NCBI GenBank assembly: GCA_030142905.1 | Contig: JASJOG010000032.1 | Coordinates: forward strand, 1,164,001-1,228,000 | Direction of reading: 5' to 3' | Source: Heliopora coerulea | Taxonomy: Eukaryota; Cnidaria; Anthozoa; Scleralcyonacea; Helioporidae | Length of the DNA: 64,000 nt | In this document: one piece after another, positions 3 through 54,278 of the stretch | Numbering within the stretch: position 1 is the first letter of the stretch | Layout of the letters: each line of letters begins with the position of its first letter | Position numbers and translations under genes: made by a program | Notes under the pieces: model-generated | Databases searched by the model: none | What the model was told of the DNA's origin: nothing | Seen by the model: the letters and a program-made list of their open reading frames with translations, nothing else

Positions 3-3000
3 CATTGGTTCTCAAACTGGGGTCCGTGGTCCCCTAGGGGACTGTGAAGCAGTTTTAAGGGGACCGCGACAAGGATGCTGAGTTCTTAAATTTTAGTTAT
101 GGTTCTTGGGCATTTAGAACATATTGGGGACGTTTTACTAACCTAACATTCCTTTAGGTGTTTGTTTACAGACCAACTTTAGACTAGCTTAACTTGACTA
201 CTGTTTTCACTGTAAATGTTAGGTAAGTTGAGGTGTTTATTTGAGTGACAGGGGCACATAGCCAACATCACAAAATCACGTGCAATTTAAAATAATCATG
301 GCCGGAGAAGAAGTAGTGTTTACAACACTTCTCTTGATCATTGCAAATTTCTGCCAAATCTTCGATTTCAATCTTTACAATGCAGACGAAGAGCAAGTCT
401 TGTTGCTTTCCTATTGAAGTGAGAGCAAAATTGTCGGTGAGTTAAGCGATATCGGTGGTGGCATAGTGAAACAATTTCTAAAATTAAAAAAAAATTAACA
501 ATAGGTCTATAAAATTGAGATTGACCGAACGTAAATTTAAGGGAGTACTAGAGTGCGTAGCACCATAAAAGTAAATTTATGATTATGAAAGTTGTCCTCT
601 GTCATCATGGTATGAGTGTTTCGAGTTCAACAAGCTCAAAGTAATAAAGACATGCTGAAAATCTGTCACACATCTGTCATGAAGGATGCCGTGATTGGCT
701 GCTGTGTTTACTTGACCAAGTTAGACCATCTTGCTAGGTCGTCTAACTTGGACATGATTTCCAGTGTTTTTACGACATTTTTCCAAGTGAAAACACTCCA
801 CGTTTTTAACTTGCCTAACTTTTCGTAGGCTGTTTTCACTGTACTTCCGGACTTTCAATGTTGAACTCGTCTAAAATGTCCTAGTGAAAACGTACCGATT
901 GTATGACCGGCAATGCCGTTTTGCCAATTCAGTGCCAAACATGCCATTTGACAATGCCAAACATTCATCATATTGTAACGAGTTATGCTATTATCTGTTT
1001 TGTACCTGTCAATGACTCATCCCTCCTAGTTTCATATTAGTGAATTACGCTAATTTATTCACGTAGAATACTTGGCAATAAACTCATGTAATATCTTAAA
1101 CCTCGTATAAATAGAAGCCTGCTTGTAAACTAGTTCATTTGAGTTCAGAGTTGCTTAACTCAGCCTAATAAAGTCACAAAATACCGATCAAATTGTGCTA
1201 GCGTTTCTCCACTTCAGTAGAGAACCTCAGATATACTCTGGTCTATTCAGAATTTCCCTTACCCCAGGGAACATATCCTGAACAAGTCACAGGTTTTTTG
1301 TTAACACACTTTATTTTTACTCTTAAAGCTTTTTTTTTTCCATGTGGTTGTTCATGTGGCTGTCGCGAAGTTATTCATAGAGCTAACACGTGAACTGTCC
1401 ATTACGTAATATCCAACAGGTCTATGATGACATCATATTACGTTCCATCTTTGCTTTCATAATGCCTCCAAAAAAGAAAATGAGATATGACAATTCATAT
1501 TTGAAATTCGGTTTTACTGTGATAAAGTCTGGTGGAGAAGATAAACCGCAGTGTGTTTTGTGCTCCGAGGCGTTGGCATCTACTTCCCTAAAGCCCAGCA
1601 AATTGAAAAGACACTTGGAAACAAAGCATCCCAGTTCAATAAATAAAGATGTGAACTTCTTCAAATGCCAAGCCAAAAGATTGATCAAATCCAGACTTGA
1701 TGACACAGGAATGTTTTCGCAGGACATTACTGCTGGTCTGAAAGCCTCCTACAAGATTTCAAGGAGAATAGCTGCCGCCAAAAAAACCCACAACATTGCA
1801 GAACAGTTGATATTGCCTTGCTGTAAAGACATCATCTCGAATGTGCTAGGAAGTTCTGAACTTCAGAAGCTGAAGCATATCTCCCTGTCAAACGATACTG
1901 TTAGCAGGCGAATAACTGAGTTGTCTGATAACATTCTGTCCCAGGTGGTGTCGAAGATCCAAAATTCAATTTTTGGCTTTTTTGCGATCCAGCTTGATGA
2001 AACGATTGATGTCACCAACTTAGCCCAACTTTGCATCTATGTACGTTATGTACATGACAAGCACCAAAATAACCGCAAGGGAAATATTTAACAAAGTGGA
2101 CAGATTTTTTGAGGTGCATAGTATCAATTGGGAGCATGTTATTGGCATGTGCACAGATGGTGCTCCGGTGATGCTTGGCTGCCATTCCGGTTTTCAAACG
2201 TTGGTAAAGGAAAAGTCCCCAGAAGCTATTGGTACACACTGCACAATTCATCATCAAGCACTGATGGCAAAAACTATGCCTGACGAGGTGAAAAATGTTT
2301 TGAATGATGTGATCAAAGCAGTGAATTTTATTAAAGCGAACGCACTCAACTCTCGTTTGTTTGCTGAGTTATGCAAAGAAAATGATTCTGAATTCGAAAC
2401 TCTTTTGTTGCACTCACACGTGAGATGGCTTTCAAAGGGGAAAGTATTGAAGAGAGTTTTCGTACTACGAAAAGAAATACACGAATTTCTGCAAGACGCT
2501 AAACCAGGCACGTACGAAAAATTCTCCAATGACCGTTTTCTGATGTGCCTGTCATTTTTGGTGGGCATATTCGAATCCGTGAATTCCATCAATCTGGCGC
2601 TGCAAGGAAAAGAGATCACCGTGCTCCACTGTCATGAAAAATTGACTGCTTTTAAAATGAAGCTTGCACTGTGGCATTCCAAGCTAGATAGCAAGAACTT
2701 TGTGCCATTTCCACAGCTAAACACATTGCTTGATGAAAACAAACTTCACGTCGATGATGATATCCTTGATGTGATGAAGCACCATGTTTCAATTCTTGGC
2801 GAGGAAATTTCTCGGTACTTTCCCGATCTACAGGAATTTGAAAAGTACTATTGTTTTATCAACAATCCGTTTGCACTCTCTGTTAGCGATCTGCCTTCAG
2901 AAGACAACTTAATCCAAGAACAGTTTATTGATTTGGTGAATGATGGTAGTGCAAAACAAGTTTTCCGTGAAATGTGTTGCAGTGACTTTTGGATTGAAAT

Positions 3001-3384
3001 GGCGCAGTCATTTCCTGATGTAGGAAAGATGGCTCTGAGTGCTGATTCCATTTACAACCACCTATGCTTGTGAGACTGCATTTTCAACTCTACTTGCCAT
3101 CAAAACAAAATCCCGAAACAGATTGGATGTGACTCATGACATGAGAGTTGCACTGTCCAAAACACAGCCCAACGTAGAAGAACTATTAAAAGTCAAGCAG
3201 GTGCACCCATCTCATTGAACTGTACTGTAAAATTGATGACTGAGATTTGCTGTTTTTGAAATAATTGTTTACCAAATAACATTTTGATTATGTTGATCGT
3301 CCTTAGTTTTGTAAGGGGACCACGAATCATAAAAAAATAGTAAGGCCACCACGTAAAATTTTTTGAAAAGTTTGAGAACCACTG
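3..3384 (+). mobile_element. hAT DNA transposon, ZBED5-like, near complete
   Basis: The ends are inverted copies of one another: the left end reads CATTGGTTCTCAAACT and the right end reads AGTTTGAGAACCACTG. A second shared block (TAAGGGGACC, at 58-64 and 3312-3321) lies just inside. TIRs of this CAGTGGTTCTCAAACT type belong to hAT elements with ZBED-like transposases. One broken transposase gene fills the middle. Only 2 bp of left flank is in the window, so the expected 8-bp target duplication cannot be tested. Positions 80-1380 are AT-rich with no recognisable coding sequence. Confidence 0.85.
1462..3218 (+). pseudogene. hAT transposase with BED zinc finger, frameshifted
   Basis: The likely start is the ATG at 1462 (MPPKKK). 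A BED zinc finger follows (C-V-L-C at about residues 31-34, then H-L-E-T-K-H). Next come the hAT RNase-H-like segments: the first acidic motif near 1995 (IQLDETID), then CTDGAP-M near 2150 and HCTIHH near 2240. The frame shifts around 2040-2090, where about 15 codons of the usual family sequence appear to be missing. It shifts again near 3064, after which the C-terminal dimerisation motif (ETAFSTLLAIKTKSRNRL) reads on in another frame to a TGA at 3216. This is the ZBED5/SCAND3-type group of hAT proteins. With two frame breaks the copy is not expected to encode active transposase. Confidence 0.85.
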
Positions 3385-23790: not shown

Positions 23791-25080
23791 AAGAAAGATG
23801 TAGTGGACCAGATATTTACGATTGGACAGCAGAGTTGGAGTGTGTGCTCTGCCTGAAAGAAACTTGTTCACAGTCACATGATACTACAGCTTGCATTTCA
23901 TGCAGTGGATGTGTTCCTAACCAAATAACACTTCAAGAATGTATGGGTGAACTTAGATAAAATATAAAGTGTGGTACTTGTAAGATGGGTTATTATAAAA
24001 TGGTGGTGTGAGGATCTCTCTGTATACTATTCATTCATTTCATAATTCAGTTGCTGTTAAAAAACATACTGTCGACTGACCAAGATTTCAAACCAAGTAC
24101 ATGGCTACTTCATACATCTGAAAATGCACTAAAACCAGGATATGGCCAGGAAATTCTTTCAAAATTCATGCAAGTTGGTTCTCATTACTTGGCTACAAGA
24201 GCTAAACATCATCAAATGGCAGCAAACTTGAGGAGACATGTTTCACAGTCAAAGTATCTTTTTAATATCATACTATTGCTCTTGAATGATATTCATCTTA
24301 ACCCTGGACCATCTGATACTGGGCATCCTTCACCAATTACCTTCAACACCAAATGTTTGAAAGTTGCTCACTTAAATTTATGCAGCCTTCTTGGCAAAGT
24401 AGATGAATTAAGAATGTTAATGACTCATACTCCTTTTGATATGCTAACTTTGTCTGAGACTTGGTTAAGTAAAGACGTTCTAGACTGTGAAATTAGCTTG
24501 CCTGGTTATTCAAGTGTTCAAAAAGATCAAACAATTCAATGTGGTGGAGGGGTTATAACGTATATCAAGCATGGTCTTATATTCTCTGAATGCGAAGACT
24601 TAAACAATGATATCGACAAAGTCCTCTGGATAGAAATTAACAGAAACAATTGTGAGGCAGTTCTCATGGAGAATACTTATTGTGCACTGGACTGTGCTTT
24701 GGACGATTTTTTACATAGGATGGAACAGTCACTTTTGCAAGTTGAATCTAAACACTATGAAAAAGTGGTTCTTGGAGACTTTAATGTTAATTTTAATTTT
24801 TCAAACTGACCAACAACTAAAACAGAAGCTGTGAAGAGTTGTGGCTATGTTTGATATGCATCAGTTAATTCGTACGCCAACCCGTATTACATGTCATTCA
24901 GAAACAACAATTGACTTGGTTTTTGTGAATAACAAACACAGAATAACTGAAGGAACTTGGAACGGTCATGTTGTTTTGAGCTCTGTGCTTATTCTGTATT
25001 TATCTTTGTTTTCTTATCTGTGGGCACTCAAACTGTATCAACTGTATCAATAAACCTGGGATCAATCCTGCTGACCCTGA
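23791..25080 (+). pseudogene. LINE (CR1/L2-like) 5' part: Cys-rich segment and APE endonuclease
   Basis: 23791-23985 reads a Cys-rich segment (CVLCLKETCSQSH, CISCSGCVP, IKCGTCK). 24051-24809 is one open frame with LLLLNDIHLNPGPSD, the usual leader before the endonuclease, then VAHLNLCSLLGKVDEL, FDMLTLSETWLSKD, GGGVITYIKHGL and VVLGDFNVN (catalytic Asp-x-Asn of the APE fold). A frameshift near 24810 leads to HQLIRTPTRITCHSETTIDLVFVN. The copy stops near 25080 before any reverse transcriptase. The metal-binding and DFN residues are present but the gene is truncated. Confidence 0.8.
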
Positions 25081-27310: not shown

Positions 27311-27326
27311 CCTATCTCTTTAGTTT

Positions 27327-29040
27327 ATGAGATTTTTTATCTCCACTAGTAAGCCAGGTGACATTATTTACCCTCAATTTAACCTGGTGATGATACGGAT
27401 CATCCTTAGTGGCAATGTTCACCCTCAGCCGGGCCCAAATTCAAAGAAAAATAAAAATTCTCGGCCTGGCAATGATCCCGATGTAAACCACTCTACTACA
27501 TCAGTGGTTGGCCAGCATGCAAATTTGTGCATCAAGATCGCTCATCTGAATATTCGCTTGTTGAAGTCTCGCGAACACCTTTTTCTTCTACAACATACTG
27601 TCGAAGAACATGACTTTCATATATTTACTATATCAGAGACTTGGCTTGACTCAACGGTTGATAATCAAGTCATGCAGCTTCCTAGATTTGTATTCTTCCT
27701 CCAAGATCAGGGAGAACATAAATCTGGTGGTGGTCTAGCCGTATACATCAAAGACACATTCAAAGCGACACTCTTTGAAGATATCTCAGGAATTAGCAAT
27801 GAAAATTTTCAACAGCTCTGGATAAAAGTCCAAGTTCAACACTGCAAATCAATTTTTATTTGTACTGTTTATAGACCACCTGGCACTACATTAGCTTTCA
27901 GCGATAGTTTGTCCAGAAGTCTCCTGGATATGCTACTGCATGGCAATGATATTATTATTCTGGGTGACCTAAATTGTAATATTCTTGATGATACAGTGGA
28001 TAGTCGAACTTTGAAAGAACTTTGTGCTAGTTTCAATTTGACACAACTGGTGAAGGAACCGACCAGAATTACAGAAGCAAAGTGTTTCTTAATTGATGTC
28101 ATTATGATCACTGATCCTTCCCTAGCGGAGTCTTGCTCAGTCATTACATCCTCAATAAGTGATCACAACTTAGTTGAGGTTACCTTGAAGATAAGTCGCC
28201 CTAAAGTCAAAACCAAATATGTCACTACAAGAAGCTATTTCGGATATGTGCCCGACAGCTTTTGCGAAGATCTTTCTCTTGTTCTGTGGCATATGGTATA
28301 CTTCTTTGACAACATTGATTCCCAAGTAGAAACATTCGATTCTCTCTTCTTGGACGTACTGGATCAGCACGTGCCCATTAAACATATAAAGATCAAGTCC
28401 CGCTCTAATCCGTTTGTAACACCAGAAATAAAGCACCTCATAAAGACCAGGGATTGTTGGCATAGGAAAGCCATCCAAACTACTGACAAGCTATGCTGGA
28501 ATGAATATTGCTTCTTCTGACAAGAAGTGAAATGAGAACTGAGGCTTGCTGAAAAAATCCATGTAAGAAATTAAATAGCTTGGAAGATCTTAAATCGATG
28601 TATGTCTCGCGGTACTGCTAGATGTCCAAGTACTTTGGAGGACCATGAGACTTTGGCAAACAAATTCAATAAGTACTTCATGTCAGTGGGAGAACTTACT
28701 GCCTATAAAGCGAACCTGACAACAAGGGAATATGGTTTGGATAAAGAATGTGGTTCTAGGGAGGAAAGCATTGACATTGGCCTACACACTGACACAGAAG
28801 GATTTGAGCTCCAAGATGTAAAAGAAACTGACATCAAGTCTGTCATTAAGAGTTTAGCTGCCAACAAAGCACCAGGATATGATAAAATCTCTGCATGAGT
28901 CCTGAAAGACAGTTGTGAGAGCATTGCACCTATGATTTACAGACTGGCAAATAATTCATTTAAGATGGCTGCTTTTCCTAAAGCATGGAAAATTGCTGAG
29001 GTGATACCTGTACCCAAAGAAAGAAACTCAGAAGAACCTG
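27327..29040 (+). pseudogene. LINE (CR1/L2-like) endonuclease to RT start, second copy
   Basis: One open frame (27327-28520) carries SGNVHPQPGPNSKKN, IAHLNIRLLKSREHL, FHIFTISETWLDS, GGGLAVYIKDTF, TVYRPPGT, IIILGDLNCNIL (endonuclease D-x-N), LVKEPTRIT, ISDHNLVEVTL. This is a nearly intact APE endonuclease. After a stop at 28518 the frame resumes as KFNKYFMSVGELT and VIKSLAANKAPGYDKISA, a stop, then IAEVIPVPKE, the start of the reverse transcriptase. The copy is cut at about 29040. It runs in the opposite direction to the LINE at 25240-27310 and may have inserted beside it. Confidence 0.85.
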
Positions 29041-35255: not shown

Positions 35256-37311
35256 ATATCTGTCGTTTCTGTCGTATGAAACTAGCCTCCTGCAGCGCAA
35301 ACACAACTCGATGCAACTCATACGACAGTTGTGTATCTTGGGTTTCCATTAAAGTTGTATCTGTCATATCTGTCGCTTCTGCTACAACAACAGGCAAGGG
35401 GGACTGGGTATATCAATATTAAACTTCTTGCCCAATGCTAGCCAGCAGTTATCTCTAACTTGTTTTTTCTTGTAATCTTTCGAAAATTTGTTGTAAAGGC
35501 ATTTATAGCGCTGAAGTTCTTCCATGAAAGAGGCGACCGAGCATTCAACGTTGCTTTTGACCTCCGCCGCCATGTTGAAAACAAAAGAGGTGCATTCTGG
35601 GACACATTTTTGTTGCATTTGTCGTATGAGTCACATGCGATGGTTTCCATTAACAAAATGCTGTTGTATCATGCCCATTTCCTGTTGTATCTGTTGCAGG
35701 AGATAGAATCCATTCTATCTCATACAGCAAGTTGTATCTGTCGTTTCTGTCGTATTGAGCGGTTGTATGTGAGGTTTCCATATAGTTGTATCTGTCGTAT
35801 GAATTTTTTTCATACGACAGACACGACAGATACAACAATATGGAAACCAGCCTTTACTTGACTTTCTTTTTTTCACATGCATAACTGAGGTTGTAAAACT
35901 TGATTGATATTAAGTATATTGTATTTAAATTAAAATATTGGTGCTAGGGAAATGTGTATAGTGTTTTCAGACTGCTGTCTAAAAATAAACTAAGTACATG
36001 TTGTAGGTTGACTTGCACTGAAAGCCTTTGGTGCTATATATTTTTATTGTCATTGTGTTCAAGGAGTTGAAAAATTAACTCATAGTAGTACTGTATTATC
36101 ATCCATCAATTTACAGATGCTTATAGTGTTGAAAAAATAGAACCTCAATATATTCAATGATCTCATCTCTTGTATCTTTTAGATATACACGAATGTCTCC
36201 AGAGAGATTCCAACATCTCCTTGAGCTTGTTGGACCACTGATAACAAAAAAGCCATGCCGCTCTAGAGAAGTCATCACACCTCAAGAGAGGCTAATGGTC
36301 ACTCTGAGATACATGGCAGAGGGAGAGGCACAGCAGAGTCAATCATTTAATTTCTGTATAGGGAAAACTACAGTCTCCAACATTGTTAGAGAAACCTGTG
36401 ATGCAATTTGGACAGCCCTCCACCAGACGTACCTCAAGACTCCCACTTCTCCTGAAGAGTGGAAGAAAATAGCAGATGGTTTCGAGGAGTGGAACTTCCC
36501 TCATTGTCTTGGGGCAATAGATGGTAAACACATGATTGAATGTCCCAAGAATGCAGGGTCTGCATATTACAACTATAAAAATTTCCATTCTATTGTGCTC
36601 CTTGAAATTTGTGATGCAAACTATTGTTTCACTTTTGTTGACACTGGTGATTATGGAAGCACAAATGATGCAAGTGTACTATCAAATTCAGCCTTTGGAC
36701 AGGCATTTGACAAGGGTCCAGAAACACTGAAGACACCGAGACCATGCAATTACAAAAATGTTCAGAAGCTCCCATTTGTACTTATTGGAGATGACATTTT
36801 CCCACAAAACAGTTGGTTGATGAAGCCATTTCCTGGTAAAGGACTACACGAGCACCAGAGAGTATATAATTACAGGCTATCAAGAGCTAGGAGGACAATT
36901 GAAAATGTTTTTGGTATCCTGTCTGCAAAATGGAGAATTTTTAGGAAGCCCATTAAAGCAAATGTTGATTTGGTGGATAAAATAACCAAGGCCTCAGTAT
37001 GTCTTCATAACTACCTTTGTCTTACAGAGAATGCTACATACACACCAGATGGATTTATTGACAGTGAAGACAGTACTGGCAACATTTTACCAGGAGACTG
37101 GAGAAACACTGGTAATGATGGAGGATTGAACGCAATTGGTTGTGTTGGTGGTAACGGATATACTGTTGAAGCAAGTGATGCACGAGATGCATTTAAAGCT
37201 TACTTTAACAGTGCTGATGGTGAAGCTGATTGTCCATGGCAGCTTCAATATATAAGAAGTTGTGGCTCTATACAAAAAAACTTTGTTGAGAATCAAGTGA
37301 CATTTTATTAA
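34862..37311 (+). CDS. Harbinger transposase (HARBI1-like), two exons, intact
   Basis: Exon 1 is 34862-35010 (ATG in AAAATGGCGG; donor CAA|GTAAGC). Exon 2 is 36183-37311 (acceptor TCTTTTAG). The split codon AA+A restores Lys, and the product is 425 residues. Exon 1 encodes a basic leader and FWVRPIFQRRERLGIFHTLV. Exon 2 opens with RMSPERFQHLLELVGPLI, the usual N-terminal helices. The catalytic triad is D163 (GAIDGKH), D212 (GDYGSTNDAS) and E290 (RRTIENVFGIL); GDDIFPQ and YNYRLSRARR are also present. No stop or frameshift is seen, so it could be active. In this superfamily the transposase cuts DNA only with the partner Myb-like protein. A MITE fills part of the intron. Confidence 0.9.
35227..35853 (-). 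mobile_element. non-autonomous Harbinger MITE with TTA duplication
   Basis: The ends AGCCTGGTTTCCATAT and ATATGGAAACCAGCCT are inverted repeats; TTA flanks both sides (35224-35226 and 35854-35856). Inner GGTTTCCAT-(A)GTTGTATCTGTC repeats occur at least three times. On the minus strand 35618-35382 encodes the first part of a MADF protein (FMEEL-RYKCLYNKFSKDYK) closely similar to the one encoded by the surrounding element. So it is an internally deleted relative of the host element, inserted in the transposase intron between 35010 and 36183. Confidence 0.9.
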
Positions 37312-37761
37312 AATAGCATATTTTGCATTGACCACTTGAAAAACAAATTAAAATCATTTTCTTGTTTTAAATGATCACCTCTTCACTGGTTCTGTATGGT
37401 CACTTGTAACAGATATTATCAAAGACAATTTTTGTATCACCAAGTGTCTGAATAAGGCCCGATTCAAATAGTGTCATAATCATAACGAGGTCCTAAAAAT
37501 GGGAAAAATCATTTTGCTATCATTATGACTATCACACCAAAAAAGATGTATTAACCAAATTATAGGATTTATTTATGATTAAGCTTATGATGCCGTGTGA
37601 ATCAGGCCTAATACGCTTATTGAAACAGTAACATTATATGTTCAATAATGTTCATCATGCAGAAACCGTAACATTAAAGGGAAAAAAACTACCACAGATT
37701 TTTAACCAATACTTAGATTATAGTCCAAAATCTCCAAAAAATGTTATTCTAATAAAATCCA
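37312..37761. other. spacer between convergent Harbinger genes
   Basis: A 450-bp AT-rich spacer; both genes end into it. GGCCCGATTCAAATAGTG (37458) and GTGTGAATCAGGCCTAA (37596) form a loose inverted repeat. Confidence 0.5.
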
Positions 37762-38676
37762 TTATAGAGGATGCAGGTTGTAGTCAGAAGTACCATTATG
37801 TCCATATTGAGATGTATATTCAGCTGAGTGATTATATCCCATATGCATTGGGGCTGGATGATACTGTTGTTGGAGTGATCCTCCAAATTCAGCTTGGAAC
37901 ATCAATTGTTCCAGCTGGATTCTCACATATCCCTGAGCTCTTTCGGGGAGTTTTTTAAGTCTCTTGGCGAAGCTCCTTGCAAAATGCATGTGCTCATCAT
38001 CCTTGTTTATATCTGATGAGGGCTTCTCAGATGGCTCTTTTAGCAGTTTTTCTGCAATTTGAATCATTGCCAGGTCGACGTCTTTTGAGCTTCCCGCTTT
38101 TTGATTATTTGATGCTGCCCATGGCCATTTCGTCTTCAATGTAGAAGCCGATGACTTCATTTTGGAAGGTATCTCCTCCATTTCAGCTGTGATGACTGAT
38201 GTTTGACTTGTGGTCGTGGAAGATTCAGGAGAATCAGCAATATCTAGCTCTATATCATCATCAACAAACCTCGTGCTTGAACTAGAGCTGTTGTTCATGT
38301 CTTCTTGTTGGTTATCTATTGCCTCCTTGTCATCGCTCTCCTGATTGTGCAAGTTTGTCGTGCTTTTCCTGTGGCTGATGTGCTGATCTAGCCACTCCAG
38401 ATTTACAAATTCCCCAGCTTTGGGGACAGCGTCCCTTCCTGAGCCAGAAGGAACGTTTTTCAGTCTCTTCAAATAGCGAACATAGCTTGTGGGTATGTTC
38501 TTGTGTTTCTTCTCGGCATCTGCTGAAGTTAAGCCGAATTTCTCAGCAATCTTGGCCCAGGCATTCTCTTTGGTCCTTCTGTTCTTGTAATCCTTTGAAA
38601 ATTTGTTATAAATGCAATCATACTTTTGTATTTCTTCCATGAATGAAGAGGTGTTATTGGAGTTGTTTGCTCCCAT
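37762..38676 (-). CDS. MADF/Myb-SANT-like Harbinger accessory protein
   Basis: Open frame of 304 residues from the ATG at 38676 (MGANNSNNTSSFMEEI). The frame stays open to an upstream ATG at 38760, but that part lies in the GGTTTCCAT terminal repeats, so the inner start is preferred. The MADF-like domain covers about residues 12-100: FMEEIQKYDCIYNKFSKDYK, ENAWAKIAEKFGL, VRYLKRL, EWLDQHI. A Ser/Asp-rich linker follows. Near the C-terminus FARSFAKRLKKLPERAQG then YVRIQLEQLMFQAEF form a BESS-like oligomerisation helix pair. In PIF/Harbinger this protein binds the terminal repeats and brings the transposase into the nucleus. No stop or frameshift is seen. Confidence 0.88.
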   Translation of the reverse strand: MGANNSNNTSSFMEEIQKYDCIYNKFSKDYKNRRTKENAWAKIAEKFGLTSADAEKKHKNIPTSYVRYLKRLKNVPSGSGRDAVPKAGEFVNLEWLDQHISHRKSTTNLHNQESDDKEAIDNQQEDMNNSSSSSTRFVDDDIELDIADSPESSTTTSQTSVITAEMEEIPSKMKSSASTLKTKWPWAASNNQKAGSSKDVDLAMIQIAEKLLKEPSEKPSSDINKDDEHMHFARSFAKRLKKLPERAQGYVRIQLEQLMFQAEFGGSLQQQYHPAPMHMGYNHSAEYTSQYGHNGTSDYNLHPL

Positions 38677-38982
38677 TTTGGAATACATGCAACAATAAAG
38701 ATGCATCATGGGATATGTCATGTCGCTTCTGATGTAAGGATCGTTTGAACCGGTTTCCATTAAAAATTATTAGCACGTAAGGTGTGATTTCCGGTCGTCT
38801 CTGTCGCAAGGATAGAACTCAAGTCTATCTCGGACGATCCATACGCAAGGATCGTTTCTAGCGCAAGGATTGCCTCTGTCATCTGAGAAGAGCGTTTCCA
38901 TATAATCGTCTCTGTCACTTCTAAAAATTTGAAGCGACAGAGACGATCCTTACGACAGAAACGATTATATGGAAACCGGCCT

Positions 38983-46234: not shown

Positions 46235-46927
46235 TCACAGCCTCGGCAGGTGGCTTGATAGGCAGGGCAGGATGTTTTTCCTCCATGATGGGGGTACTCT
46301 CCTCCACAATTTCGGAATTTTAACCTTGATTTCCGGTCTTCGTGACCACCGTTGCGTGACTTCCAGTCACGTGACCTCTTGTCGGCTTGGCGTCCGCCAT
46401 CTTGGTTTGAATTTGCAGGACCTTTTCAATTTCGTCTGCTTTGATTTCCACAACGTGAAAACAATTTATTGACAGATTGTTTATCCTCGATGTTAGCAGC
46501 CTGTGCTTTTGAGAGTTCCATGGCTTTTCCAGCATTCAATAGTTAAGTCAGGGTGTATGAAGGATTCTCGAGGGCTTTTGTTTGCAGCATGTGAGAACTA
46601 CAGCTTTGGACTATTTGGGTCTTGACTTCACGATCTACATTGTTAAATTTGCAGGTAACCGCCAACTGTCTTAGCCTTATGTGAAATGCTGAAAGACTTT
46701 CATAATTTTCTTGCTTGGCTTGACGGAAAACAAATTTCATACTCACGGTTTTGTCTGGAAGTTAAGTAATTTGTCAAGGCTTGCACGGCTTTGTCAAACG
46801 GGTCTTTGCCTTCTCCTGCTGTAGTGTTTGGGTGAGTGTCAAAAATTTCGTCTGTTGCTTCGCCAGCATAGTGGAGTAGCACAGCTCGTTGTCTTGTCTT
46901 ATCTGTGACGTTCATTGCGACAATTAG
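46235..46927 (-). pseudogene. Gypsy gag, main part with zinc knuckle
   Basis: Continues gag after the insertion: (L)IVAMNVTDKTRQRAVLLHYAG, EATDEIFDTHP, YEICFPSSQARK (frame change), FRQAKQENYESLSAFHIRLR, QLAVTCKFNN. Near 46320-46240 the minus strand reads CRNCGGEYPHHGG-like (F for the first C) and CPAYQATCRGCEN then a stop, the CCHC-type zinc knuckle with a second Cys pair. Its missing N-terminus lies 7.2 kb away at 54124-54219, on the far side of the tyrosine-recombinase insert. Confidence 0.85.
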
Positions 46928-47635
46928 ATCTATGTTGTTTCATCCTTTTTGGTTTTTCAACCATAGAAGGCACTATATTTGATGGATTTGGCTGAAACTT
47001 GATATTTTTATTTAGAATGTAATGGTCTATATAGGGTGTGAATTTGGTAAAGTTTGGTTAAAACAGGGGATCGCTATATAGAGGTGGGCATTATAAAGTG
47101 CCAAAATAACACTCAACCTCCCATTTTTTCCTGGCATTGTCAGAAACTGCAGGGGGTTTTTTGGCATCCTTAGGGTGTTCTGATTCTAATTTTCTATTTT
47201 AATTTTTTTATACTTTGCAAAATTCCTGGGGTTGACCAAAAAGTATAGATGGGGTATATGTTTAGCACTACAGTGTGTAGAAAATTTCAAGGTCATTGAA
47301 AACTTGTCAAAAATCCTGGGTGACATGGTTCCTGAAAATCTCAACAGCTGAAATTTTATACCAAGGAGTGACGGCTGGCAAGTAAAAATATTGTTTGAAA
47401 AAAAATTGGTTAAAACCATGTGACTTGGGAGCGTTTTCTCTAAAATTGGAAAAAATGGCCCAATTAACACAAAAGCCTAAATAACATTTTCCTACCATAA
47501 GTGGCTGGGGCTAAAAATAAATTCATTTGAAAGCTTATCCAAATATGGACAACATATTGACCAGAGACCTTATACGGCTAATAGGAACTTGGACTTTTTA
47601 CAAGAAATTTAATTTTTCCCAATTTATTTTTACTC
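46928..47635. other. left end of the YR element, non-coding
   Basis: AT-rich, with minus frames (47186-47498) that lack motifs. It contains TGGTCTATATAGGG (47027) and CGCTATATAGAGG (47071), which loosely resemble each other. Nothing else is recognised. Confidence 0.4.
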
Positions 47636-47639
47636 ATAA

Positions 47640-48175
47640 CAAGGAAGGCTGAAAGAATCTCTGATGCAAATATTAAGAAAATATGTTGCAAATTATGCAT
47701 ATTTCAATCGAACAGCATTTGGACACCTAACCCTGGTGATTTAAATTTTTTATGGAATTACAAAGAATTAAAAAATTGGGTTATTTTGTGTTATATTGTT
47801 CATTCTGTATTGAAATTGATTTTTAGTCATAACACAAAAGGCTGAAAGAACCCCTGATGCAAATTTCAAGACAATATGTTGCAAATGGTGCATATTTTAA
47901 TCGAACAGCATTTAGACACCTAACCCTGGTGATTTCAATTTTTTATGGAATTAAAAAGAATTAACAAAATTGTGTTATATTGTCCATTCTGTCATGCAAT
48001 TTATTTTGAGTCATAACATGAAAGGCTGAAAGAATCTGATGCACATATGAAGAAAATATGTAGTAAATTATGCATATTTCAATCGAACAGCATTTGTATG
48101 CCTAACCCTGGTGATTTAAATTTTTTATCGAATTAAAAAGAATTAACAAATTGTGAAAAATTGCCATTCTTGGGT
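47640..48175. repeat. three tandem units of about 185-193 bp
   Basis: GGCTGAAAGAA starts units at 47647, 47840 and 48024. Each goes on with CTGATGCA, AAATATGT-GCAAATTATGCAT, TTCAATCGAACAGCATTT, CACCTAACCCTGGTGATTT and AAAAAGAATTAACAAA. Confidence 0.9.
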
Positions 48176-48224
48176 CAAGTTCAAAATACAACACTTTTCC
48201 AAATATTTTTAGCAAAATATACAT

Positions 48225-49920
48225 TGTAGAGAGACATGCTATGTACCAAACAATTCATCTCATGGAGAAGAATCATTTGGTACATAGTATGTCTCTGTAC
48301 AACATATATTTCACTTGCAAAGTGTGAAACATATATGAAAGTATTGCCTTTCTGTTTTCGGTCTTTCTATTATGAATCAAAATACCATATTTTTCACAAC
48401 ATTTTTAAGCGAACTATACGTCCTACAGAAACATGCTATGTACCAAACGATTGGTCTTGCTTAGACAAATCGTTTGGTGCATAGTAGGTCTCTGTTTGAT
48501 GTATATTTCGCTTACAAATTGCAACAATGTATGATAATGTTGCCTTTTGGGATAATGGCCTTGTTTGTCATGGATCAAAACACACCACTTTTCACAAAAT
48601 TTTAAGCGAACTATAAGTCCTACAGAAACATGCTATGTACCAAACAATTCATCTCGCTTGGACAAATCTTGTGGTACAAAGCATGTCTCTGTTTGATGTA
48701 TACTTCGCTCACAAATTGCAACAATGTATAAGGTTGCCTTTTGGGATAATGGCCGTGTTTGTCATGGATCAAAACACACCACTTTTCACAAACTTTAAAG
48801 CAAACCATACGTCCTATATAAACATGCTATGTATGAAACGATTCGTCTCGCTTAGACGAATCTTGTGGTACAAAGCATGTCTCTGTTTGATGTATATTTT
48901 TATTACAAATTGCGACAATGTATGATAAAGTTGCCTTTTGCGATAATGGCCTTGTCATGGATCAAAACACAACACTTTTCACAAACTTTACGTCCTATAT
49001 GAACATGGTATGTACGAAACGATTCGTCTCACTTAGACAAATCTTGTGGTACAAAGCATGTCTCTGTTTTATGTATATTTCGCTTACAAATTGCGACACA
49101 TGTATGAGAATGTCGCCCTTCCGATAATATTCTCATGGATCAAAACAACACTTTTCACAAACTTTAAAGTGAACTATACATCCTATATGAACATGCCATG
49201 TACAAAACGATTCGTCTTGCTTAGACGAATCTTATGGTACAAAGCATGTCTCTGTTAGATGTATACTTCGCTCACAAATTGCAACAATGTATGATAAGAT
49301 TGCCTTTTGGGATAATGGCCTTGTTGTCATGGATCAAAACACAACACTTTTCACAAACTTTAAAGCGAATCTTGTGGTGCAAAGCATGTCTCTGATGTAT
49401 ATTTTGCTTACAAATTGAGACAATGTATAAGGTTGCCTTTTGGGATAATGGCCTTGTTGTCATGGATCAAAACACAACACTTTTCACAAACTTTAAAGCA
49501 AACTATACGTCCTATATGAACATGGTATGTACGAAACGATTTGTCTCACTTAGACAAATCTTATGGTACAAAGCATGTCTCTGATGTATATTTTGCTTAC
49601 AAAGTACAACAATGTATGATAATGTTGCCTTTCCCATAATGGCCTTGTTTGTCACGGATCAAAACACAACACTTTTCACAAAATTTTAAGCGAACTATAC
49701 GTCCTACAGAAACATGCTATGTACGAAACTATTCGCCTCGCTTAGACAAATCTTGTGGTACAAAGCATGTCTCTGTTTGATGTATATTTCGCTTACAAAT
49801 TGCAACAATGTATGATAATGTTGCCTTTCCCATAATGGCCTTGTTTGTCATGGATCAAAACACAACACTTTTCACAAAATTTTAAGGGAACTATATGTCC
49901 CAGAGAAACATATTTTTTTT
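48225..49920. repeat. palindrome-bearing tandem array, about 190-bp units
   Basis: About nine units, each with a dyad of the form ACCAAACGATT-GTCT-tgct-AGAC-AATCGTTTGGT (clearest at 48438-48476). Each dyad is followed by GCATGTCTCTGTTTGATGTA, TTCGCTTACAAATTGC-ACAATGTATG, TTGCCTTTTGGGATAATGGC, CATGGATCAAAACACA, ACTTTTCACAAA and CGAACTATACGTCCTA. One unit (near 49370) lacks half its dyad. Short open frames across the array are repeats of one another and are not considered genes. Confidence 0.92.
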
Positions 49921-50150
49921 CTTTAATGGTAAACTATTTTATTATAATCCTTTGTAAAATAATAAAAATTTACATACTGTGCAAAAATTTGCAAAAAATA
50001 ATTGAGTTGTGAGCGATTCAAAAGTTAATAATTAAGAGTCTACAACATAATCGTTTGATTAAATTTTGTCTCACTGAGACCAATCTTTTGACATATAGCA
50101 GTTTTTGTAAGATATATATAGTGAAAAATATTAAAAAGGGAACACCCTTT

Positions 50151-50701
50151 CAATGACAGGAAGTAATTAACAGAAAGACTGGTAGTGAAAACCGGTGAAT
50201 AATAAAATGTGCGATAAAGTGTATGCTTGAGTTAATCCAGGTGTGTATGTGTCAGAAAAAACATATAACAAGGAAAATATTAACAGTTAGAACAAGGTTA
50301 AAGGAAGGGAACTGATCTTGGCATTGAGTGAAGGATTTATTTTATTAATAAGTAGACTCTCCCTGAGAAGGAGTTCAAAATTAGAAGAACAGGAGCTTAG
50401 AATAGAAAAATCAGTCAAAGAAACAGGTGGCTAGTCTGTTTGTGGTGTGTTAAGACAGCAGATAAAGTGACAGAGATGGGCTTTCCCCTGTAAGCAGAAA
50501 CACACACGTGTAAATGGCGAATAGTTTCACCTATATACAATGCCAAGTTTAGTTCCCTTCCTATAACCTTGTTCTAACTGTTAATTTTTTTCTTGTTATA
50601 TGTTTTTTCTGACTCATACACACCTGGATTCACTGAGGCATACACTTTATTGTTCACCGGTTTTCACCACCAGTCTTTCTGTTAATTAGTTCCTGTCATT
50701 G
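50151..50701. mobile_element. Penelope-like scrap with inverted ends
   Basis: The left arm (CAATGACAGGAAGTAATTAA...AGGGAACTGATCTTGGCATTG, 50151-50325) and right arm (CAATGCCAAGTTTAGTTCCC...TTAATTAGTTCCTGTCATTG, 50539-50701) are inverted copies. Between them the minus strand holds a remnant of a GIY-YIG endonuclease related to 16841-17167: the shared GAGAAGGAGTTCAAA block and CACCTATATACAATG at the catalytic strand. It is inserted in or among the palindromic repeats. Confidence 0.75.
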
Positions 50702-51204
50702 TAAATTGAATATTATACAGTTGAGAACACCTTTTCAACTGTTCCCTTTCAGTGGTGAAGTATCATTGTATTGTGGTGGTCATTAAAAGTCGATTTTCAG
50801 GGTTTTCCAGCTATACATTTTACCATTTATCTGTTAATAAGTGAGAGGTGAGTTTCAATTAAAACAGACTTACTCCAGATTTTTTTTTGCAACTGTGTAA
50901 CTTTAACAAAGACATTTGCGTTACAAAGACATCTGCATAACAAAGCTTGTGTTTTTATGTAGACAATTTGATACGATTTGTCTCACTGAGACCAATCTTT
51001 TGGTACATAGTATGTCTCTGTGCCTGGAATATTTCGCTTACAAATTGCGAAAATGTATGACAATGTTGCCTTTCTGATAATGGCCCATAATGGCCATAAC
51101 ACACTTTTCACAAAATTGTAAGCGAAGTACATGTCCTACAGAAACATGCTATATACCAAACGGATTTCTAAGGTGCAGGGGTCCAGTGTAGATAGCTTCA
51201 ATAA

Positions 51205-51331
51205 AACAGCGGCGTTCTTGAGGTTATACACTATCTAAAAGATAGACCCAGACAAAAGGCTTTCGGTCGAAACGTCGAGAAGCTTTTTTTCTATCTTTTA
51301 GATAGTGTATAACCTCAAGAACGCCGCTGTT
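51205..51331. repeat. 41-bp perfect inverted repeat with 45-bp loop
   Basis: AACAGCGGCGTTCTTGAGGT continuing to 51245 is the exact complement of 51291-51331. The loop holds GGCTTTCGGTCGAAACGTCG, a motif like those in PLE terminal sequences. Confidence 0.92.
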
Positions 51332-51390
51332 ATATACCAAATGATTTGTCTCACTGAGACCAATCTTTTAACATATAGCAGTTCTTGTGT

Positions 51391-51680
51391 ATAGCCTTGG
51401 TTTGTATACAGCAATTCACTGTAACAAAGACATTTGCATTATGAAGACATTTTCATAACGAAGCTTATGTTTTTATGTAGACTATTGGCTTTCTGAATTG
51501 AATTTGGAGCAGGTGACATTCCTCAAACATATTTAATAAGTTCTCATCATGCATACGTTTTCCGTAAGGAAGTTCCATTGTTTTCCCATTATTGTTCATT
51601 ATTATTGTTAAGTTGTTGTTCAAAGAATATGAGTTGAGAGTTGGGTATCAGTTTTATACATTCTTTTCTCAATTTCTTTA
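51391..51680. other. upstream region of the YR gene
   Basis: 290 bp without coding motif; the end CTCAATTTCTTTAG (51669-51682) is a good splice acceptor, so a further upstream non-coding exon is possible. Confidence 0.4.
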
Positions 51681-51716
51681 GTGTGGTTCTCTAAAACAGA
51701 ATCCAGTCCCGGGTGC

Positions 51717-54123
51717 ATGCCACCTTCCGATCAGGAAGGTGATGTGTTCCAATCATGGGGTGATGAGAAATTTGGTGAGAGTAAAGAGGCCTCTTTCAGC
51801 AAGATTCAGTCCTCCTCCTTGGAAGAAGCCGATGACCCCAACTATGAATTTTCTGAGATGGAAACAATAAGCGAATATTCGCCAGGACCCTCATCCAATG
51901 TGTCAACAGGGGAATGTTTATCTCTTGTCCTCGATTACTTTGGGGAGGGTGATACAATCGACTACCCATTGAACCCAGCGTTCAACCGGCAGAAACAACC
52001 TAAAAAAACAAACACAAAAATCTGTAAGTAAAATTAAAACATGAGCGTAAATGTAAACCATTAATAAATCTATAATTGTATTTATTTCTCTTTATTATTT
52101 TTTATCAGGGTAGAAGATCTTGTAAGTGCCCAAGATGTGGGAAGTCCTTGAAGCGACTCGTGGTGCACTTACAAAACATGCATCAACTTAGCCGCACACA
52201 GGCACTCAAAATTTCCAAAAAGAACAGGGCAGTGAAAGTGGGAACCATCCAGCAATACAAGGCCATTCTGTGCCCTGTGCCATCCTGTTCTTCCCTGGTC
52301 TGCAGGGTGGACTAACATCTGTTAAAGAAACACAGATTCACTTCAAACAGTGACGCCTTTAAGAAGTAAGTTCTTTTAAGCTGGACACACACACACTTGT
52401 AAACCCCATAATTAAAACAAACTCGGTTTGGATATTTTTAGATACAACCATGCGGCGAAAAAGTATAGAAAAGAAGAGAAAAGAAAGGCCACAGTGACAC
52501 CGTAAGCAAACGAGTCAAGTGACGAAGACGAGGGGCCTAGCACATCTACCAAACACCAAAGGAAGGATGAAAGTGAGAGCGACGAGGACCTGATAGCCCC
52601 TAGCTCCGAAAGCTCCATGGAGGAGGAGGACATTGAAGAAGATCGCTAGAGAATGGATCGTCCCAGAGATATTTACTGGGGTGGATTGTCCGATTTGATA
52701 AATAATCAGGAATTCTTCTCCTGTTTCGTGGCGCACTTCCTTGGTTGGGAAAGGGGTATACAGAACAGAAGAGCAACCGAGGAGAACGCACAAAGGTTAG
52801 CCAGGCTCCTCTACCAAGTGGACCCTAGCCTTTGGGACCCCACTAGACTGTGGAGGGCCGAAGATGTGAGAAAAATATGCAAGTGCTTCTTTGAGGGCAA
52901 CAGCTCCCTCCCGAACCCAAGGAAGCCTGGCACCCTGAAAGCACACATCCATAGTTATAGGATATTCCTCCAATTCGTGGAAAACCCTGGCGTCAATATT
53001 TCCCAACATGTGGCCATGGAAGACGACGACAGACATGCCATCCGAGACACAAGGGAAAAGCTGTACGGCTGGCTTAAGTGTCTTGTTCCTTTGTCTCACA
53101 AAAGGAAAGTGGAAGTCCAACAAGAAGATCTCGGCAAGGTGCTGGGCGAGCAGGAGTATGAGCTGATCAGGGAGTTCAGTAATCTGCAGGCAGACTACAT
53201 GATGAACTCCACCGATTTCATAAGACTTCAGGACCTGATCATTCTCCGCCTCCTGCTGGTTTCAGCACAACGACCTGGTGCGGTGGCCAATCTAACCATG
53301 AACAAATTTGAAAATGGAAAATGGGACCAAGAGAGCAACCTGTATATCACAGGAACCGTCACCCATAAAACACCTTCCCTTGGTCCGGCAGGTCTATGGT
53401 GGGACAGGACGACCTACCAGCTGGCCCAAGTTTACCTAGGTAGGTAATACTTTACTTATAAGGCAAGAGTAGATCTGTATCACTACTATGTAAATTATAA
53501 TTATTATGAATTGTATTTCTCTTACAGAAAAGTTTCATCCGTTGTATAAGAACGAATCAACTCTGTTCCCTCCCATGCCTGGATACGTAACCCATGGAGA
53601 GCCATTCTTCATTACGAAGGATGGCAGTCCAATAGACTCGAACAAAGTGTCCAGAAGATTGGCAACGATGGCTGCTATCCTCCACCCCTACTTAAATGGG
53701 AAAATGTCAGGCAAATGTATAAGAAAATCTGCAGTGACCAAATTCAGAAACCTACCAGCGGCAGTTACCTCCTCCATCTCCAACCGCGACTTGGCCCAGC
53801 AAATGTCGCATTCGGACGCAATTGGTGACAGATTTTATAATCTGTTGGACATTGTGAAAGAATGTGGAAGAACGGCATCATTCATTAAATCAACAATTAT
53901 GGGCCAAGCAGACGAGGAACTGTCCGCTTTTAGTACAGAACTTACAGCTGACATAAAGAAGCGGCTCATTGCTCGCTTTGGGGAACTCGTTCATAAAGAC
54001 GAGATGCCCAGCGAGTAACAAATAGAGGACTTTATGGACAGCCTCCCCATAAAAATTCAAGCCACCAAGAAGCAATGTACAGATTACCTCAAAACCAAAA
54101 TTAACACACCCGACCCTAAGTAG
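51717..54123 (+). pseudogene. zinc-finger/tyrosine-recombinase gene with in-frame stops (3' part open)
   Basis: Exon 1 51717-52023 (acidic, Ser-rich; donor T|GTAAGT). Exon 2 from 52109 (acceptor TTTTATCAG): C2H2 finger CPRCGKSLKRLVVHLQNMH, then CPVPSCSSLVCRVD-stop-HLLKKH. Donor AA|GTAAGT at 52366. Exon 3 from 52442 to 53439, with stops at 52499 and 52647; from the ATG at 52653 it is open. Exon 4 starts 53528; the split codon G+AA restores Glu. The open part (52653-54015) gives 425 residues. YR catalytic set: R207 (SAQRPGA), K239 (THKT), R328 (CIRKSAV), H357 (QQMSHS), Y366 (DRFYN), with H-Y spacing 9 as in the family. It would bind and recombine DNA. The frame from exon 1 to exon 2 does not join exactly. 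After TAA at 54016 the frame stays open to TAG at 54121. Confidence 0.72.
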
Positions 54124-54219
54124 GTTTTGGAATCTCGAGAGCCATTTCTTCCATTGTGCAGCTTGTGTGCTTGTTTCAGATATGTCAAATTTGGGGAATG
54201 TGGGTAACGCTGTGGCCAT
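54124..54219 (-). pseudogene. Gypsy gag, N-terminal 32 codons
   Basis: Starts at 54219 with MATALPTFPKFDISE, then AQWKKWLSRFQNL, where the gag homology stops at the insert border. Gypsy gag proteins of this group read WKKW--RFENFLVAMN, so the two halves on either side of the insert fit without loss. After the border the frame runs on by chance into antisense YR sequence. Confidence 0.87.
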
Positions 54220-54278
54220 TTTTCATATGTTTGTGGTATGAATATTGTCTAGAATTATCCCCCATTGTGGTCCTGAGA

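Follow-up and report, generated by a model that had tools for sequence, protein, structure and literature searches.

The analysed window is a stretch of 64,000 nucleotides from the Heliopora coerulea genome (contig JASJOG010000032.1, positions 1,164,001 to 1,228,000 of the forward strand), in which the gag gene of an older Gypsy retrotransposon is precisely interrupted by an insert of about 7.2 kb. The insert, at window positions 46924-54119, is probably a truncated and defective member of a multi-copy DNA transposon family, which has a tyrosine recombinase (YR) as its only recognised enzyme and would move by the recombinase route proposed below. On our best reading the element family is Crypton-like in its mode, with class membership unproven, and is set apart from animal Cryptons as these appear in published descriptions.

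The window's contig (C246) belongs to a 430-Mb genome (G000), which was searched with the left and the right junction of the insert. With the left junction there were 21 matches, made up of the window itself, five further copies of the left end (C35, C246:1538.8k, C362, C433 and C750), 11 Gypsy places matching on the gag side only, and four that were short and partial. With the right junction there were 17: besides the window and those 11 Gypsy places, these were five matches to relatives of the element. A previous reading of the sequence alone had proposed that the insert splits a Gypsy gag, and this is borne out by the same 11 insert-free places matching both gag sides. Ten of them were fetched and read; in all ten gag runs unbroken through the site, with the sequence GACAAGTAGG (one, L071, has an adjacent substitution). 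In the window, GACAA is followed by TTAGATCTATG at the left junction (GACAA/TTAG), and ACCCTAA by GTAGG at the right junction (CCTAA/GTAGG). Because all ten empty sites read GACAAGTAGG, the borders are 46924-54119 (7,196 bp) rather than 46925-54123 as formerly given, and the insert-free gag codon at the junction encodes Leu, not Ile, the second T of the left AATTAG being a base of the element. The exact bases common to both flanks are AA, a dinucleotide making up 10.9% of those in the window, and no target sequence is lost. By the same ten sites, the 3-bp TAG duplication once suspected comes down to a chance likeness between TTAG of the element and GTAG of the target. A looser flanking 6-mer, AATTAG/AAGTAG, agrees at five of six positions in the window copy. 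It is unlikely that the two gag halves are merely an assembly join, because the left end recurs at five independent sites.

A second target was read in the same way. At the left end the copy most similar to the window's is C35 (89-91% identity over matched stretches), which sits in a high-copy repeat; of 186 first-look candidates for this repeat, 40 were scored. The 39 scored rows besides C35 all end at query positions 319-332, at or just before the junction. All 11 empty sites that were fetched read CTGGAACGAC, AA included, at the point where the C35 copy passes from CTGGA into TTAGGTG. AA also stands at the end of the left flank in C246:1538.8k, C362/C433 and C750, and some left flanks read CCTAA. 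The two insertion targets with empty sites are thus a gag gene and a dispersed repeat, neither of them a telomere repeat.

Recombinase matches were found at about 17 places in the genome, so that the element is multi-copy. The copies C1, C362, C433 and C246:1538.8k carry a YR gene extending beyond the equivalent of position 54119; the gene is followed in relatives by further hairpin-like array units and then by the right end. Because relatives continue past this point, the window copy is incomplete, with about 2.4 kb lost. The copy at C246:1289-1293k spans 2,423 bp from the 54119-equivalent gene position to its right end, and a full-length element of about 9.6 kb may be inferred by combining different copies. 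The ends of other copies had been named beforehand as a test of the insert's limits: the left end proved common to five copies, whereas the right end differs and reveals the truncation. The final CCTAA of the insert is identical to the terminal CCTAA of the family, and at that place the C1 gene reads CCTAACCCTAT. The right part of the window copy would have been lost later, by a deletion between a CCTA-like tract of the last exon and the terminal CCTAA; a deletion between two such tracts would leave the right border perfect.

Three other interpretations of ends and breaks were discarded. Position 54119 cannot be the right end of the family, since relatives go on past it. The right end of the C1 copy (L011:7234) is not the family end either, as C177, C246:1292k and C557 extend beyond it; the loss of about 700-840 bp of host sequence at C1, measured against three of four insert-free sites, also rules it out. 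A break in C163 at the same exon position, taken for a second truncation at a CCCTAA tract, turned out to be the start of a retroelement, Copia-like by eye.

The features of the insert and of its borders are, by window position and strand:

46800-46923, minus strand: first part of the gag frame where it resumes beyond the insert, from the junction match and empty sites.
46924-54119, plus strand: YR element with the left end intact and about 2.4 kb gone on the right (7,196 bp kept), from empty sites in ten of ten fetched Gypsy copies.
46924-46957, plus strand: left end TTAGATCTATG, a candidate recombinase arm, common to C35, C246:1538.8k, C362, C433 and C750.
47621-48153, plus strand: tandem array, unit of 193 bp, 2.8 copies, present in relatives too.
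48181-49911, plus strand: tandem array of hairpin-like units of about 196 bp; C1 and C362 have similar units on the right side of the gene as well.
51633-52028, plus strand: open frame with the likely first coding exon (acidic), splice bounds approximate; a homologous frame is found in the C1 copy.
52109-52367, plus strand: C2H2-like finger exon, recognised by eye, with a stop at 52313.
52441-53439, plus strand: YR exon with the first active-site Arg and the Lys, from sequence and alignment, with stops at 52503 and 52647.
53440-53527, plus strand: GT-AG intron, spliceable in frame, lacking in the relative P0004.
53528-54119, plus strand: last kept exon, with the second Arg, His and Tyr and a stop at 54016, ending abruptly at 54119.
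54120-54222, minus strand: start of the interrupted gag frame, from the junction match and empty sites.

Left ends are of the type TTRGG...: TTAGGTGTATG in C35, TTGGATCTATG in C246:1538.8k, TCGGGTCTAT in C362 and C433, and TTGGGTCTGTG in C750. Right ends are of the type ...CCTAA and read, when reverse-complemented, TTAGGTCTTTTATG in C177 and TTAGGCCTTTTGTG in C246:1293.0k. For 12 left-right pairs, 34 bases were aligned from the terminus and the scores compared with those of 467 internal windows and 300 shuffles. Seven of the 12 pairs outscore all internal windows and three all shuffles, two of these three being the C362/C433 duplicate pair. The ends of the old copies are thus suggested to be imperfectly inverted counterparts of one another over about 33 bp. 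The statement of the sequence-only reading that terminal inverted repeats are absent holds for the window copy, the right part of which is gone, but not, it would seem, for these old copies.

The recombinase gene of the window copy is interrupted by in-frame stops at 52313, 52503, 52647 and 54016. Its intron (53440-53527) and its R-K-R-H-Y residues are as first described, but the 425-residue frame is only a part of a longer family protein. Retention of the intron argues, as had been held, against a retrocopied gene. The R, K, R, H and Y columns are invariant in seven of seven sequences and correspond to R372, K404, R493, H519 and Y528 of P0004, which we take to be its active-site residues, in part by their likeness to lambda Int; no conserved column corresponds to the initial His of the standard HxxR box. 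A structure model of the YR resembles XerA, XerH and Cre, and is predicted to have the YR catalytic fold; that of P0004 was unusable (mean predicted local distance difference test score, pLDDT, 43). The sole match in a sequence search of solved structures was MutL (E 1.7), and a profile comparison with Cre gave no signal (E 0.81). The dN/dS ratio (nonsynonymous to synonymous substitution rates) of the family YR is 0.15-0.47, and the gene is, judged by its sequences, under purifying selection. The C2H2-like fingers lie N-terminal to the recombinase, and the C1 equivalent of their exon has zinc-finger matches below threshold only. At the C-terminus the relatives are SANT-like (Myb_DNA-bind_3, E 9.1e-4, below its cut-off; helices with pLDDT >90). 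The C1 copy has 20 open reading frames (ORFs) of at least 75 residues, four of which were scanned for domains; these four had no reverse transcriptase or DDE domain, and the YR was the only transposition enzyme among them. A scan of viral_contigs returned 23 pattern matches and no relative of the YR, endogenous nimaviruses in host genomes being outside its coverage.

In the proposed route the recombinase would excise the element as a circle, with its ends joined as ...CCTAA/TTAGG.... This circle junction would be an inverted-arm site of the type used by YRs, for which sites with inverted arms are typical according to PMC3212892. Strand exchange at a short site containing AA would then reinsert the circle, without DNA synthesis.

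Several observations weigh against this account. No copy keeps both ends, and the right end is based on two copies that are only about 70% alike there. The left ends of the window and of C750 show no inverted signal, their scores being reached by 57 and 29 and by 12 and 15 of 300 shuffles, respectively. C362 and C433 have common flanks and are duplicates, counted as one, and the C35 junction is short of one A. The YR model is of moderate quality (mean pLDDT 55), with residues 205-318, including His and Tyr, below 50. Another enzyme could, moreover, have produced the common AA as a 2-bp duplication. Such an enzyme would belong to a cut-and-paste DDE transposon carrying the YR gene as cargo, for which there is a precedent in the composite MarCry-1_FO, a Crypton moved by a Mariner transposase (PMC3212892). 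Inverted ends and a 2-bp common AA formally fit this explanation; it is disfavoured because the scanned C1 ORFs contain no DDE domain, purifying selection on the YR also speaks against it, and we consider it very improbable.

If the element were an ordinary animal Crypton, its ends would look inverted by chance and the recombinase would work on a direct repeat of a few bases, for example AATTAG/AAGTAG. A YR as sole recognised enzyme suits this explanation, as does the flanking 6-mer of the window copy, fungal and oomycete Cryptons having direct repeats of 4 to 6 bp (4 or 6 bp in the fungal ones) according to PMC3212892. The right flanks after AA differ, however, among the window, C177 and C246:1293.0k, and inverted pairs exceed the internal windows in seven of 12 cases. 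Kojima and Jurka (2011), in the same paper, report animal Cryptons as lacking terminal repeats and a C-terminal domain, whereas the relatives here have a SANT-like C-terminus; this explanation is therefore unlikely. A non-mobile repeated host gene or a segmental duplication, which C362 and C433, with their common flanks and the look of a single duplicated locus, might suggest, conflicts with the empty sites found for two targets and with one left end lying in five different surroundings, and is hardly credible.

A YR-encoding inserted DNA element, as the Crypton-like appearance first noted implies, agrees with the copies, the left end, the empty sites, the fold and the dN/dS; the apparent inverted ends and the SANT-like C-terminus depart from the published account of animal Cryptons. 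CryptonA and CryptonI of animals are alike in being DNA elements of animal hosts, with a YR as sole recognised enzyme and no long terminal repeats; as published, they differ from this element, which apparently has inverted ends and is further distinguished by C2H2-like and SANT-like domains, by arrays and by an inferred length of about 9.6 kb. Endogenous nimaviruses encode telomere-associated YRs with a C2H2 domain; PMC10871703 describes their insertion at TAACC/GGTTA repeats and sets them apart from Cryptons. The combination of YR and C2H2, the element ends CCTAA/TTAGG and the CCTAA of some left flanks resemble this system, a likeness that is suggestive only, being drawn from descriptions; theirs are large viral genomes with telomere-repeat targets, while here the targets are gag and a dispersed repeat. 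DIRS and Ngaro retrotransposons share the YR, and Dirs1-like elements have inverted repeats (PMC4157794), but no reverse transcriptase was recognised in the scanned C1 ORFs. With the YR transposons of the Tn916/Tn1549 type, which are bacterial, conjugative and carry many genes, the likeness would be one of mechanism, not shown as kinship. Among literature titles and the beginnings of abstracts, no animal YR-only DNA transposon with inverted ends was met with; this is weak evidence of absence, most subscription papers and Repbase being outside the coverage.

We tentatively raise the possibility, with the balance somewhat against it, of a distinct eukaryotic lineage of YR-only DNA transposons. 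It would have Tn916-like inverted ends, a near-palindromic CCTAA/TTAGG circle junction, a need for little beyond AA in the target, no duplication, and DNA-binding C2H2-like and SANT-like parts on the recombinase, relatives of the same YR being also found fused to SET-domain proteins. Such proteins are found among distant YR relatives outside the window (database proteins P0018-P0028), which bear an N-terminal SET domain; P0018, on a 1.8-Mb contig, matches SET with E 8.1e-17 and the YR family with E 8.6e-7. These SET-finger-YR fusions may represent a further family of mobile elements or reflect the recombinase being put to use by a host.

Some further repeats and frames were recorded. The 196-bp hairpin-like units at 48181-49911 match many places in C501, in unrelated-looking series, and because of this recurrence the array may be an independent satellite. 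A near-perfect hairpin at 51201-51335 (46-bp arms, 98%) has no match in the relatives compared and may be a small insertion nested in the element, which also contains, at 50148-50704, a larger inverted repeat (92%). Rfam and tRNA scans of the window found nothing. The host repeat of the C1 copy (L011:7218-7634, L055-L058) codes for a stretch that weakly matches phage-integrase SAM-like (E 0.0032) and is perhaps a DIRS-like element. Elsewhere in the window, a Harbinger-like pair at 36133-38766 combines a DDE_Tnp_4 frame (E 4.8e-27) with an oppositely oriented MADF frame (E 5.7e-12), and frames at 1387-3073, 24012-24809 and 27324-28520 resemble, by eye only, hAT transposase and endonucleases of long interspersed elements.

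The boundaries of YR transposons have been described as hard to find, so that most of what is said on the site choice of their recombinases is inference. With empty sites at two targets, the junctions are fixed here to one or two bases, and candidate recombinase arms are available from old copies; the joining reaction is therefore directly testable. The SET-YR proteins hint at a combination of this recombinase lineage with a chromatin enzyme.

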